Shown here piece by piece: positions 1 through 4,608 of a DNA stretch of 5,635 bases. The notes beneath the pieces were generated by a model. It had not been told where the DNA came from, did no database searches, and saw only the letters and a program-made list of their open reading frames with translations. Both the position numbers and the translations under genes were made by a program. This DNA is from a bacterium (lineage in GTDB: Bacteria; UBP15; UBA6099; DSWB01), in the NCBI GenBank assembly GCA_020061125.1, contig JAGUYV010000041.1:1-5635 (forward strand), given 5' to 3'. Position 1 is the stretch's first letter; each line of letters begins with the position of its first letter.

Positions 1-977
1 TGATGACCACGCTGCTGGCCATGGAAGCCCTGGCGCGCGGCGGCTGCGACGCCGGCACCTGCCTGGCCTGGGGCGCGCACACCATCCTGTGCGGCGTGCC
101 CATCTGGCAGGTCGGCAACGAGGAGCAAAAGAAAAAATACCTGCCCGGCATCGCCTCCGGCGAACTCATCGGCGGCTTCGGCCTCACCGAGCCGGAAGCT
201 GGCTCCGACGCCGCGGGCGCCAAAACCACTGCCGTGAAAAAGGGCGACAAATACATCCTCAACGGCTCCAAAATGTTCATCACCAACGGCCCCATCGGGC
301 ATGTGTTCGTGGTCATCGCCGTGACCAACAAGGCCGCGGGCCATTTCGGCATCTCCGCCTTCATCGTGGAAAAAGGGTTCCCCGGCTTCTCCGTGGGCGA
401 GGATCTTGACAAGCTCGGCAACCGCTCCAGCACGACCTGCGAGCTGATCTTCGAGGACTGCGAAGTGCCCGCCGAAAATCTCCTCGGGCAGGAAGGCTTC
501 GGGTTCATCACCGTGGGCAAAACCACGCTCGAATGGGAACGCTCGTGCCTGCTGGCCGCGGGCGTGGGCGGCATCGAGTTCGGCCTCGACAAAACCGTGC
601 AGTACGCCAAAGAGCGCAAGCAGTTCGGCAAACCCATCGGCAAGTTCCAGGCCGTACAGAATATGCTCTCCGAAATGAAAGTCAGCGTGGAAGCCGCGAA
701 AATGGCGCTGTACCGCGTGGGCTGGCTCAAGGAGCAGAATCTGCCCGCCATGCTCGAGGCGTCCATCGCCAAGCTGTTCATCTCCGAAGTGGGCCTTCGC
801 GCCGCGGACCTGGCCGTGCAGGTGCACGGCGGCTACGGCTACATGAAGGAATATGATGTGGAGCGCGGCTACCGCGACGCCAAGCTCGGCACCATCGGCG
901 CGGGCACTTCCGAGGTCCAGCGCATGATCATCAGCAAAATGCTCCTCAACACCAAGAAGAAAGGGGGCAAAAAATAA
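1..977 (+). CDS. Acyl-CoA dehydrogenase, putative catalytic subunit (ACAD-A), 5'-truncated
   Basis: FAD-dependent alpha,beta-dehydrogenation of an acyl-CoA thioester; the acyl substrate cannot be told from sequence. The first complete codon is at 3, and the ATG there is internal, not the start: the flavin motif LTEPEAGSD lies at visible residues 61-69, whereas in full-length homologues it sits near residue 125, so about 60 residues lie upstream of the window. Visible motifs: T62 of TEP, KMFITNG (90-96, with T94), YAKERKQFGKPIG (201-213, R205), QVHGGYGY (273-280) and YRDAK (290-294). The C-terminal segment that reads IYEGT in short- and medium-chain enzymes is IGAGT here (298-302), so the usual base is absent. 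Instead, E179 in LEWERS (codon 537-539) occupies the helix-G position used by isovaleryl-CoA dehydrogenase (E254 in human IVD). The protein ends in a lysine/glycine tail. It overlaps the next ACAD by one base. Family call is very secure; catalytic assignment is by alignment from memory. Confidence 0.95.
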   Translation, partial: MTTLLAMEALARGGCDAGTCLAWGAHTILCGVPIWQVGNEEQKKKYLPGIASGELIGGFGLTEPEAGSDAAGAKTTAVKKGDKYILNGSKMFITNGPIGHVFVVIAVTNKAAGHFGISAFIVEKGFPGFSVGEDLDKLGNRSSTTCELIFEDCEVPAENLLGQEGFGFITVGKTTLEWERSCLLAAGVGGIEFGLDKTVQYAKERKQFGKPIGKFQAVQNMLSEMKVSVEAAKMALYRVGWLKEQNLPAMLEASIAKLFISEVGLRAADLAVQVHGGYGYMKEYDVERGYRDAKLGTIGAGTSEVQRMIISKMLLNTKKKGGKK

Positions 978-979
978 TG
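961..979 (+). promoter_or_regulatory. Ribosome binding site and TAATG stop-start overlap of the two ACAD genes
   Basis: AAGGGGG at 961-967 lies nine bases before the ATG at 977-979. The upstream gene's TAA (975-977) shares its last A with that ATG. The Shine-Dalgarno sequence falls within the codons for the lysine/glycine tail of the first ACAD. This arrangement favours translational coupling and roughly equal amounts of the two proteins. Confidence 0.8.
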
Positions 980-2125
980 GACTTCGCGCTCAACAAAGAC
1001 CAGAAAGAACTCCAGACCGCGTTCGGCAAGGTGTGCGCCGCGGACATCGCCCCAGGCGCGGCCGCCGCGGACGCCGCCGCTTCGTTGCAGATTGACAACC
1101 TCAAGAAAATCGCGCGGGCAGGCTATTTCGCAACCGCCGTGCCAGAGGAATTCGGCGGCAAGGGCGAAGAGCTTGTGACACTTTTCGCGCTCACCGAATC
1201 GCTGGCCGCAGCCTGCCCCGGCACGGCCATGGCCGCTTCCACCTCGGCCTGGCTCTGCAACACCGCCATCCTGAAATACGGATCCGAGAGCCTCAAGAAA
1301 TCCCTGCTGCCCGCGCTCGCCGCGGGCGAAAAACTGGGCGCTTTCGCCCTGGCCGAACCCGGCGCCGGATCGGACATCAACGCTATGGCCGCCACTGCGG
1401 TCAAAGACGGCGATTCCTGGAAACTCGACGGCGTCAAGGGCCTGTGCTGGAACGCCGCGGCCGCGGATGTCATCATCGTGATCGCCAAAACCGGAGACGG
1501 CGCGGACGCACAGCCCGCCCTGTCCGCATTCGCTGTGGAAAAAGGCTGCGGCTACACCGTAGGAGAACAGGCTAAAACTCTGGGCCTGCGCGCCGCGCCC
1601 GCCGCGAACATTGACCTGTCCGGATGCGCCGTGCCCGCCGCAAACCTGCTCGGCGCCGAGGGCGCGGGCTGGGACATCGCCATGGATCTGCTCGATTACG
1701 GCCGCCTGCAGATGGCCGCCCTGGCCGTGGGCGTGTCCACCGCCTGCTTCATGGCCGCCAAAGAGCACGCCGAGGCCCGCATGGCGTTCGGCAAACCCAT
1801 CGGCGTTTTCCAGGAAGTGGCGTTCAAGGCCGCGGACATCTATATCGCCGCGGATGTGCCGCGCCTTCTCGCCAACCAGGCCTGCTGGAGAAAACAGCAG
1901 GGCGAAAACTGTGCGCATCTCATCGCCAGCGCCAAGCTGCTCGCTTCGCAGAAAGTCGTGGAAGCGGCCCACAAGTGCCTCCAGGTTTTCGGCGGCAAAG
2001 GCTACACCGCGGACGCGCCCGCCGAGCGCCTGTACCGCGACGCCCGCTTCTTCGAAATCGGCAACGGCACAACCGAAATCATGCGCCAGGTAATCTGCAA
2101 GGATCTTCTGGGCGCGGATTTTTAA
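977..2125 (+). CDS. Acyl-CoA dehydrogenase-like subunit lacking catalytic glutamate (ACAD-B)
   Basis: A 382-residue protein of normal ACAD length, with the N-terminal helical domain (about 1-120), middle beta domain (about 121-235) and C-terminal helical domain (about 236-382). The fold is clear from AEPGAGSD (126-133), ARMAFGKPIGVFQ (267-279), QVFGGKGY (336-343) and LYRDAR (352-357). The active site is not intact. The IYEGT glutamate is asparagine (IGNGT 361-365, N363), and the alternative helix-G position is glycine (LDYGRL, G242). The flavin-contacting threonine of TEP is A126, and the FITNG-type motif reads LCWNA (156-160), putting W158 where the N5-contacting threonine belongs. Residues that contact FAD across the subunit interface (R268, Q336) are kept. 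It probably acts as the non-catalytic partner of the upstream ACAD. Alternatives are an enzyme with a displaced base or a different reaction. The start is fixed by the TAATG overlap and ribosome binding site. Confidence 0.95.
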   Translation: MDFALNKDQKELQTAFGKVCAADIAPGAAAADAAASLQIDNLKKIARAGYFATAVPEEFGGKGEELVTLFALTESLAAACPGTAMAASTSAWLCNTAILKYGSESLKKSLLPALAAGEKLGAFALAEPGAGSDINAMAATAVKDGDSWKLDGVKGLCWNAAAADVIIVIAKTGDGADAQPALSAFAVEKGCGYTVGEQAKTLGLRAAPAANIDLSGCAVPAANLLGAEGAGWDIAMDLLDYGRLQMAALAVGVSTACFMAAKEHAEARMAFGKPIGVFQEVAFKAADIYIAADVPRLLANQACWRKQQGENCAHLIASAKLLASQKVVEAAHKCLQVFGGKGYTADAPAERLYRDARFFEIGNGTTEIMRQVICKDLLGADF

Positions 2126-2249: not shown

Positions 2250-3635
2250 CTAAAAAGACGGATCCTCGGTCATGCGTTTGATATTCAGGAGGCTGTCGAG
2301 CTTTTCATCGCTCATCAGGTTTTCGCTCCTTGCGGCTTCGCGGACCGTCATGTTCATGTCCAGCGCCTTTTTTGCAATGTCCGCGGCGCGCGCATACCCG
2401 ATTTCCGGGGCCAGAGCCGTGGCCAGGGCGTTGCTCATTTCCGCGTGCCGCAGGCATACCTCGCGATCCGGTTCGAGGCCATTGACGCACCGGTCCGAAA
2501 ACGCGCGCACAGCGCCCGCCAGAATCTGGATTTCCTGCAGGAAGTCATAGGCGATTACGGGCATCATGACATTCAGTTCCATCTGCCCTGCCTGGGCCGC
2601 GGCTACAATGGCGGCATCCAGGCCCAGAGCGTGGAAACAGGCCATGTTCAGCATTTCGGCCATGACCGGGTTAACCTTGCCGGGCATGATGGATGAGCCA
2701 GGCTGCACGGGTGGAAGTTTTAATTCGCCAAGACCGGTGCGCGGCCCGCTGCCCAGGAGCCGGAAATCATCGGCGATTTTTCGCAATGCCGTAACAAGCA
2801 CGCGCAGCGCGCCGCAGACCTCGACAACCGCATCAAAACAGTGCTGGGCCTCAAAAGCATTTTCGGGAATACGAAACTCAAGCCCTGTCAGAGCGCTGAT
2901 TTCCTCACACATGCTCTGCCGGAATCCAGGGGGCGTGTTCAACCCGGTTCCCACGGCAGTGCCGCCCACGGCCAGTTCCCGCAGCGCCTCGGACGCGCTC
3001 TCTACGCGGCGGCGCGCACGGGCGATCTGCGCGGCATAGCCGCTGAATAATTGCCCCAGCCGGATGGGCGTGGCATCCTGCAGGTGCGTGCGCCCGATCT
3101 TCACCACATCGTCAAATTCCCCGGCTTTGCGCGCGAGGGCTGCATGCAGTTCATCGAGAGCCGGCAGCAGGCTGGAGTGAACGGCCGCAAGCCCCGCAAT
3201 GTGAATGGCGGCATGAATGGTGTCGTTGGTGGACTGGCTCATGTTGGCGTGGTCATTGGGATGCACCGCGCTGCGCGCCGCGCCCATGATTTCCGCGGCT
3301 CGCGCGGCCAGCACTTCGTTCACATTCATGTTCTGGGAGGTGCCCGCGCCCGCCTGAAACACATCCACCACAAACTGGTCCGCAAACTGCCCGGCGATGA
3401 TTTCGTCCGCGGCGTTCATGATCGCTTGAGAAACGGCCCGGTCCAGGATGCCCGCATCGGCGTTGACCTTTGCCGCGGCCCGCTTGATAACTGCCTGGGC
3501 GCTCACGAATTCGGGCTGCAGGCGCAGGCCGCTCACCGGGAAGTTCTCCACGGCGCGCTGCGTCTGGGCCGCATAATAGGCATTCTCCGGCACCTGCATG
3601 CTGCCCATGGTGTCCTGTTCGATACGGTATTTCAT
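2250..3635 (-). CDS. Class II fumarase/aspartase-family lyase, probably aspartate ammonia-lyase
   Basis: Probable cytoplasmic homotetramer releasing ammonia from L-aspartate to give fumarate; fumarase activity is the alternative. The protein is 461 residues, the family's normal length. Visible motifs: AGAGTSQNMNVNEV (95-108, T99), HPND (125-128, the fumarase B-site equivalent), SQSTND (133-138), GRTHLQDATP (181-190, T183/H184) and the signature GSSIMPGKVNP (313-323), with the presumed catalytic base S314 plus K320 and N322. SQSTND (fumarases usually SQSSND), GAGTS (fumarases GSGTQ), AGQMELNVMMP and the ending LLNIKRMT favour aspartase; THLQDATP and SGPRTGLGEL are also seen in fumarases. An in-frame ATG at 3683 would add 16 residues, but it has no ribosome binding site and the family begins at MKYRIEQDTMG, so 3635 is chosen. 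Oddity: the conserved proline of NDxxPTA is H141. Convergent with the ACAD operon and divergent from the protease gene. Family call secure; specificity about 70:30 for aspartase. Confidence 0.93.
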   Translation of the reverse strand: MKYRIEQDTMGSMQVPENAYYAAQTQRAVENFPVSGLRLQPEFVSAQAVIKRAAAKVNADAGILDRAVSQAIMNAADEIIAGQFADQFVVDVFQAGAGTSQNMNVNEVLAARAAEIMGAARSAVHPNDHANMSQSTNDTIHAAIHIAGLAAVHSSLLPALDELHAALARKAGEFDDVVKIGRTHLQDATPIRLGQLFSGYAAQIARARRRVESASEALRELAVGGTAVGTGLNTPPGFRQSMCEEISALTGLEFRIPENAFEAQHCFDAVVEVCGALRVLVTALRKIADDFRLLGSGPRTGLGELKLPPVQPGSSIMPGKVNPVMAEMLNMACFHALGLDAAIVAAAQAGQMELNVMMPVIAYDFLQEIQILAGAVRAFSDRCVNGLEPDREVCLRHAEMSNALATALAPEIGYARAADIAKKALDMNMTVREAARSENLMSDEKLDSLLNIKRMTEDPSF

Positions 3636-3643
3636 GGCGGCTT

Positions 3644-3651
3644 TCCTCCCC
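3644..3651 (-). promoter_or_regulatory. Strong ribosome binding site deciding the lyase start
   Basis: Read on the minus strand, GGGGAGGA lies upstream of the ATG at 3635-3633, with the GGAGG core (3649-3645) nine bases away. The upstream in-frame ATG at 3683 has no comparable purine run. This supports the shorter, family-length protein. Confidence 0.82.
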
Positions 3652-3792
3652 GGCACTGTGCGCACGGCACTTATGGCTGTCATCGGTTGCGCTTTTATCT
3701 TATCAAATCAACAATGCGACGCGCCGGAAAGTTCAGAAAAATACAGCAGAACCCGTTCGGTTATTGCCTTATCCCTGTAAGGAAAACGGCAC

Positions 3793-3879: not shown

Positions 3880-4608
3880 ATGCAGTCCCGCGCCTTGCTG
3901 ATTTTTTATGCGCTTATAGCCATTTTGTCTTTATGCTCCGGCGCTCTGGCGGCACAGGCGCAGGAAAAAACTGCTGTATCCAGGCCGGATTTCCCATTCG
4001 CCATCCACATTCTGATTTTTGAAGGGGTGGAAGAAGAGCCGGTTTTGGGGATAATCCCCGGTTTGGAGCGCGAGTTCGGGTTCCCGGTCGTGGTTCTGGA
4101 CGCAAGGCCCGCCGTTGATCCCGAGTGGAAAGACCCCGAGCGCAACCAGTATCAGGCTCTGCGGGTTCTGGAGGCGGCCACAGCCTGGGTCCCGGAAAAT
4201 TCCGCGAGATTCCTTGCATTTTTTCCCGAGGACCTGTATATTGGCCAGATGGGGTTTGTTTTCGGACTGGCCCACCCGGACGGCCGGGGCGCGGTGATCT
4301 CGCAGTTCCGGCTGTTGAGCGGCGAGAAGAAGCGGCAGACGCAACGGCTCTACGGAGAAGCCCTTCACGAACTCGGGCACACATTCGGACTCGAGCATTG
4401 TCCGGCCCAGGCCCAGTGCGTGATGCGCGTGGCCCGCACGGTGCAGGCCGCGGATGCCCGGCCCAATGTATTTGAACCGGCCTGCCGCCAGAAACTCGAT
4501 GCCGCAATCCGGGATCTCAAGTCCGAATTGATCCAGAAGCAGACTGCAAAAGGCAAGTCCGCCGAAACAGGAGTACAGGAAAAGGAAGAGAAAAGCAGCG
4601 AAAAATAG
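3880..4608 (+). CDS. Archaemetzincin-family zinc metalloprotease with signal peptide
   Basis: Zinc-dependent peptidase of the archaemetzincin family; the substrate is unknown. Of 242 residues, 1-27 look like a Sec signal peptide: short MQSR, a hydrophobic run at 5-24, then ALA-A (22-25) or AQA-Q (25-28) as cleavage sites. C19 is a poor lipobox (LSLC), so a lipoprotein is unlikely. The mature region fits the family along its length: a strand IHILIF (42-47), NQYQA (89-93), MGFVFGLAHP (124-133), then the zinc site HELGHTFGLEHC (163-174), with zinc ligands H163, H167 and H173 and catalytic E164. C180 and the Met-turn M182 follow. The structural-zinc CxxC at the end is reduced to ExxC (E199, C202). 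The spacing between C174 and C180 is five residues; I recall four in relatives. The charged tail (215-242) is lysine/glutamate-rich. Family members are usually cytoplasmic and about 180-200 residues. The ribosome binding site is weak (AGAG near 3865), but no better start exists. Confidence 0.88.
   Translation: MQSRALLIFYALIAILSLCSGALAAQAQEKTAVSRPDFPFAIHILIFEGVEEEPVLGIIPGLEREFGFPVVVLDARPAVDPEWKDPERNQYQALRVLEAATAWVPENSARFLAFFPEDLYIGQMGFVFGLAHPDGRGAVISQFRLLSGEKKRQTQRLYGEALHELGHTFGLEHCPAQAQCVMRVARTVQAADARPNVFEPACRQKLDAAIRDLKSELIQKQTAKGKSAETGVQEKEEKSSEK

Follow-up and report, generated by a model that had tools for sequence, protein, structure and literature searches.

An acyl-CoA dehydrogenase homologue lacking any known catalytic base, encoded directly after a predicted complete acyl-CoA dehydrogenase

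Introduction

What is the role of an acyl-CoA dehydrogenase (ACAD) homologue that carries no known catalytic base and is encoded directly behind another ACAD? The question is raised by the window analysed here, which is the whole 5,635-base contig of a draft genome and which opens with two such genes, ACAD-A and ACAD-B. ACADs are among the best-studied flavoenzymes; to our knowledge they are nearly always homo-oligomers, and the exceptions known to us share FAD half-sites.

The alpha2beta2 ACADs of steroid degradation (ChsE4-ChsE5, ChsE1-ChsE2, IpdE1-IpdE2 and Scd1AB) are likewise encoded by two adjacent ACAD genes, and they too possess the catalytic base in one subunit (at the helix-G position, 255, in the alpha subunits read here) and a partner without one. 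The original prediction for the window drew on such a likeness: ACAD-B would have lost the residues of its own site, kept those that cross the dimer interface, and served only to complete the FAD sites of ACAD-A.

Results

Layout of the locus

ACAD-A lies on the forward strand at positions 3-977, and its match covers positions 67-389 of the A-family model. Its apparent start at position 3 is internal, about 66 N-terminal residues being cut off because the contig begins inside the gene. ACAD-B follows on the same strand (977-2125, 382 amino acids), and its start codon (977-979) has one base in common with the stop codon of ACAD-A (975-977), giving the overlap TAATG at 975-979 of the forward strand; in most orthologous pairs the junction is similarly tight or overlapping. 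The three ACAD Pfam domains (PF02771, PF02770 and PF00441) score above cut-off in both proteins.

Further along, the window encodes a protein of the class II fumarase / aspartate ammonia-lyase family (2250-3683, reverse strand), which scores above the subfamily cut-off but falls short of the fumarase and aspartase equivalog cut-offs, and an archaemetzincin-like M54 metalloprotease (3880-4608, forward strand) with the motif HELGHTFGLEH, a signal-like N-terminus and an NCBIfam score of 113.5, below the cut-off of 145. Another ACAD gene of the same genome (L002, G000:C217:1707-2840) contains one in-frame TAG, which may reflect a pseudogene or an error of assembly. In relatives, the neighbours of the ACAD pair are TetR regulators, an AMP-forming (acyl-CoA) ligase, SCP-x-like thiolases, BKACE and a MaoC-like hydratase, and the pair therefore likely plays a role in the beta-oxidation of some acyl-CoA.

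ACAD-B has no known catalytic base

Both proteins were aligned with human MCAD (1ege) and IVD (1ivh), the reference sequences having been verified against the PDB. The coordinates and reading frame of ACAD-B, and all six of the residues on which the original prediction rested, were confirmed by this alignment. At the position of the catalytic Glu376 of MCAD, ACAD-B has N363 (AAC, 2063-2065), and at that of IVD E254 (MCAD T255) it has G242 (GGC, 1700-1702), so that Glu is missing from both. The own-site flavin contacts T136 and T168 of MCAD are replaced by A126 (1352-1354) and W158 (1448-1450), and the residues that contact the neighbouring subunit's FAD, R281 and Q349, are retained as R268 (1778-1780) and Q336 (1982-1984); all six codons lie on the forward strand.

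The lack of a base extends to the orthologues of ACAD-B in the window's phylum, which was sampled through seven genomes, all from one order. At the positions that can be read, none of them has Glu: residue 376 (MCAD numbering, as throughout for family comparisons) is Asn, Gly, Gly or Asp, and residue 255 is Gly, Val or Ala. The loss recurs throughout the phylum's B proteins and hence cannot be put down to sequencing error. The pattern also exceeds chance: a Glu at 376 or a Glu/Asp at 255 is present in 39 of 39 background ACADs and in all nine close relatives of B, and in none of the nine B proteins termed Glu-less here, one of which (G005_B) has its position 376 past the contig end and hence unreadable.

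A compensating acidic residue in B was considered and rejected: Asp occupies position 376 in G001b only, the other proteins having Asn, Gly or Phe there, and position 255 offers none in the window phylum. Another ACAD without the usual base, with Gln at 255 and Gly at 376, is encoded in G001 (L081:3625-4785, contig C172), and no A gene adjoins it within the stretch read.

The predicted fold of ACAD-B is that of a normal ACAD (pLDDT 82, pTM 0.85). Homotetrameric SCAD/butyryl-CoA dehydrogenases head the structure search, with the same fold (DALI-scale Z 49 against butyryl-CoA dehydrogenase, 9w60) and 32-38% identity to ACAD-B, from which they differ in that ACAD-B lacks Glu376. ChsE5 is absent among the matches listed, which is no evidence of a difference. 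Together, the domains, the alignment and the predicted fold mark ACAD-B as a putative pseudoenzyme.

The pair is conserved and ACAD-B is under selection

The adjacency of the two genes proved to be conserved. An orthologue of A is present in all seven genomes of the phylum, with B directly after it, for a total of eight adjacent pairs, a count that includes two pairs from G001, each split across contig ends. The identity of A is still 66-76% across the distances over which the phylum keeps B beside it, and in the trees the branching order inside the phylum is the same for A as for B.

Among three species, dN/dS amounts to 0.04-0.05 for B and 0-0.007 for A. B is thus under purifying selection and is therefore a working protein, and its reading frames are intact in all complete copies of the gene. 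That B is a pseudogene or the product of faulty assembly is rejected on account of these dN/dS values and of recurrence across all orthologues. B does evolve faster than A, by about 3.5-fold, and by 3.4-fold on paths inside the phylum, and the B/A rate ratio is 3.4-3.6 in Glu-less lineages versus 2.0-2.7 in Glu-bearing ones. This quicker evolution and the eroding active site are what would suggest a functionless, decaying duplicate; however, the low dN/dS, the intact frames and the position beside A in seven phylum genomes make such a duplicate very improbable.

ACAD-A resembles a complete enzyme

In order to compare FAD sites, six own-site and six cross-dimer FAD positions were scored per protein. 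The assignment agrees with published contacts, which for SCAD are F152, L154, S155, T187, G160, S161 and E396 in cis and R297, Q365 and G369 in trans (PMC13027082), and which for IVD include R312, Q323 and G384 in trans (PMC12369846).

In the alignment, ACAD-A has Glu at position 255, the base position of the IVD/LCAD type, and Ala at 376. The predicted catalytic codon is found at 537-539 of the forward strand (E179 of the visible reading frame, in the motif LEWERS, equivalent to IVD E254), and position 255 is Glu or Asp in 16 of 16 A-family proteins. The family retains 96 of 96 own-site residues (100%) and 95 of 96 cross-dimer residues (99%). With its own FAD site intact and the residues for completing that of a neighbour also in place, A could form working A-A dimers unaided.

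Furthermore, the cross-dimer set is kept even where the partner can hardly bind FAD. The flavin loop is broken in the B proteins of G315 and G005, in which FAD binding is hardly possible, and their A partners nevertheless keep 5/6 and 6/6 cross-dimer residues, respectively, which argues that A-A dimers matter. Solitary A-like proteins occur in G217, G076 and G050, so the A family does not always need B. The best reading of these sequence features is that ACAD-A is a self-sufficient dehydrogenase.

The flavin/phosphate loop of the G005 B (L075:5761-6622) reads SDPDGGHLSD in place of EPGAGSD, and this protein probably does not bind FAD. In all the A proteins of a second phylum and of G315 (L125, L149, L150, L151, L152 and L153), Asp takes the place of Glu at the helix-G catalytic position, within the motif EWDRSA. 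These proteins form an aspartate-based group of ACADs, likewise paired with a B.

The EWER motif of ACAD-A is shared with the prolyl-carrier-protein dehydrogenase AnaB, and its catalytic position with IVD. Against the RedW and PigA models, ACAD-A scores 287 and 299 bits, below both cut-offs (650 and 500 bits), and the A family of relatives has an acyl-CoA gene context, unlike the prolyl-carrier-protein dehydrogenases AnaB, PigA and RedW.

The half-site arrangement and the actinobacterial heterotetramers

If the pair were an alpha2beta2 enzyme of the ChsE/IpdE type, A and B would form heterodimers with FAD in the site of A only, completed by the R268/Q336 region of B. As in ChsE4/5, the genes are adjacent and translationally coupled and Glu resides in one subunit only (PMC8399759; PMC11153573). 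The window's B, taken alone, also fits: it scores 4/6 for own-site and 6/6 for cross-dimer residues. R281 is moreover present in eight, and Q292 in all nine, of the Glu-less B proteins.

The controls were adjacent ACAD pairs from G378, an ACAD-rich genome, one of whose pairs corresponds to ChsE4/ChsE5 (chains A and D of 4x28). In the actinobacterial alpha subunits, 92% of own-site residues and 18% (11/60) of cross-dimer residues are retained, as against 39% and 96% in the beta subunits. Such reciprocal decay is as expected if FAD is bound only in alpha and completed by beta. The alpha-type loss of partner-completing residues is not found in A, whose 95 of 96 contrasts with the 11 of 60 of actinobacterial alpha (p about 1e-28) and speaks against the proposal that B completes the FAD site of A.

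In the nine Glu-less B proteins, own-site residues are kept at 80% and cross-dimer residues at 76% (p = 0.81), so that the predicted pattern of own site lost and cross-interface kept does not hold as a rule of the family. Among 130 columns conserved in active B proteins, the Glu-less ones retain 64% at own-site, 64% at cross-dimer and 61% at other positions. For the four FAD-contact residues named in the original prediction, the comparison gives 15/17 versus 9/17 (p = 0.057), and p = 0.40 when Ser is allowed for Thr. In short, the actinobacterial alpha loses its cross-dimer residues and beta its own FAD loop, whereas in the window's family A is intact and B erodes at both kinds of position alike.

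The combination of A126 and W158 with a full cross-dimer set is peculiar to the window's B. Of the seven other Glu-less B proteins readable at position 136, six have Ser or Thr there, position 168 is Thr in six of eight, and the own-site FAD residues are complete in the B proteins of G002, G004, G006, G001a, G041 and G392. The sister orthologues from G002, G004 and G006 retain Thr168 and either Ser or Thr at position 136 but carry Q349K and Ala-Ser for Gly352-Gly353 (G353S), for scores of 6/6 own-site and 3/6 cross-dimer; they have thus lost Q349 and G353, which would be needed to serve the FAD of A. In human SCAD, the Q365H mutation at the position matching Q349 prevents tetramer formation (PMC13027082).

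Finally, A, B, actinobacterial alpha and actinobacterial beta form four separate groups in the tree, in which no shared ancestry of the pair with the established alpha and beta families was found. A single clade of B plus beta is not rejected (p = 0.32); however, since B includes Glu-bearing members, the loss of its base was separate from that in beta. On this evidence the ChsE/IpdE-type arrangement appears unlikely for the window's pair.

Repeated loss of the base in the B family

At least three other small lineages also have orthologous A-B pairs. They are found in the G026 phylum (A in 7/9 genomes) and G020 and, more distantly, in the G186/G041 phylum (A in 5/7 genomes) and G315. Glu376 is kept in the B proteins of G026-type genomes, G020, G394 and G395 and is missing in those of G041, G392, G186 and G315; the relatives with Glu376 in B are L117-L119, L123, L133-L135, G394 and G395. 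When other ACADs are included in the tree, A is a single clade (support 99), and B constitutes one side of a branch supported at 93/95 in the careful tree, with the solitary proteins L094 and L095 inside.

A single clade of all Glu-less B proteins is rejected (AU test, p = 0.001). Together with the retention of Glu376 in some lineages, this topology points to an active Glu376-type enzyme as the ancestor of B and to at least two losses of Glu, some of the repeated loss depending on long branches (G315_B, 2.05). L094 and L095 are homologues of B for which the stretches read show no adjacent A and the genomes gave no A-family match. Homologues of this kind were named as refuting evidence in the original prediction, but both keep Glu376. 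Among the B homologues examined, no Glu-less B without a neighbouring A was found, and loss of the base in B is observed only where A adjoins.

The preserved own-site residues (80% overall in Glu-less B proteins) also raise the question as to whether B is a separate flavoenzyme that has taken up new chemistry, acting on the product or a side-product of A. Relatives of the ACADs provide precedents, namely 3-sulfinopropionyl-CoA desulfinase and TdaE, the latter illustrating that ACAD-like proteins are able to adopt other chemistry (PMC8283759). Against this stand the lack of a conserved replacement at 376 (Asn, Gly, Asp or Phe) or 255 (Gly, Val or Ala), the broken flavin loops of G315 and G005, and the Ala/Trp pair in place of Thr/Thr in the window's B. 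With no conserved replacement and with broken loops, one shared new reaction is unlikely, and we regard a separate flavoenzyme as a rather improbable explanation.

Discussion

A full cross-dimer set in A, strict pairing of the genes and selection on B together suggest that A is the enzyme and B its non-catalytic partner. We give a probability of roughly 55% to the reading in which A is a complete enzyme and B a co-translated pseudoenzyme that probably joins it in a hetero-oligomer, of a kind other than the ChsE half-site type. ACAD-A would be a complete FAD-dependent ACAD with an IVD/LCAD-type base, able to form working A-A dimers unaided. The ancestor of B would have been an active ACAD of the Glu376 type, encoded directly after A, whose base was later lost while the protein was retained by selection. 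B is most likely co-produced with A and would serve it in a structural, stabilising or regulatory capacity; for instance, B-B and A-A dimers could combine into one tetramer, or B could be a minor subunit of mixed tetramers. It probably does not contribute half of A's FAD site in the way that ChsE5 does for ChsE4. The sequences themselves show that both bases are gone from B, that the adjacency is conserved, that B is under selection, that the loss was repeated and that A is complete; both the physical contact between A and B and a contribution of B to the activity of A are inferred.

Of the original prediction, the non-catalytic partner role therefore stands as the best guess, because B has no known base, always accompanies A when Glu-less and is maintained under selection; the half-site mechanism is not supported. 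One observation argues against a purely structural B, as most Glu-less B proteins keep much of an FAD site that such a subunit would not need.

The suggestion that a heteromeric ACAD outside Actinobacteria would be worth describing for that reason has been overtaken by the literature. Heteromeric ACADs have been reported or proposed there for steroid-degrading Proteobacteria and for dicarboxylate degradation, with Scd1AB, ScdC1C2 and PimCD-like pairs as examples (PMC8399759, PMC6678751, PMC12543098), so finding one beyond Actinobacteria is not by itself a novelty. PimC/PimD (pimeloyl-CoA dehydrogenase) and related dicarboxylyl-CoA pairs are also encoded by two adjacent ACAD genes, and PimC/PimD-like pairs have been proposed to be possibly heterotetrameric (PMC12543098). 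The present proteins score far from these families: the PimC/PimD cut-offs are 624-653 bits, and A reaches 97 and 93 bits and B 84 and 91. New, as far as the literature searched shows, are ACAD pairs that form a family apart, in which one partner has lost its base repeatedly and reciprocal decay is not seen.

A broader proposal, which we advance tentatively and hold somewhat less probable than not as a whole, is that these pairs represent a second route to a two-gene ACAD, outside the steroid heterotetramers. It would combine a self-sufficient A, a co-translated pseudo-dehydrogenase B, at least two independent losses of the base in lineages from small phyla that have been little studied, and the survival of an active, ancestor-like B in sister genera.

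If this is true, a complete partner paired with one that repeatedly loses its base would constitute a different path to heteromery. As lineages with an active B and lineages with an inactive B are both extant, the order of events, and whether the complex came first and the base was lost later, is directly testable. The pair also carries a warning for annotation, since ACAD-B would be named an active acyl-CoA dehydrogenase.
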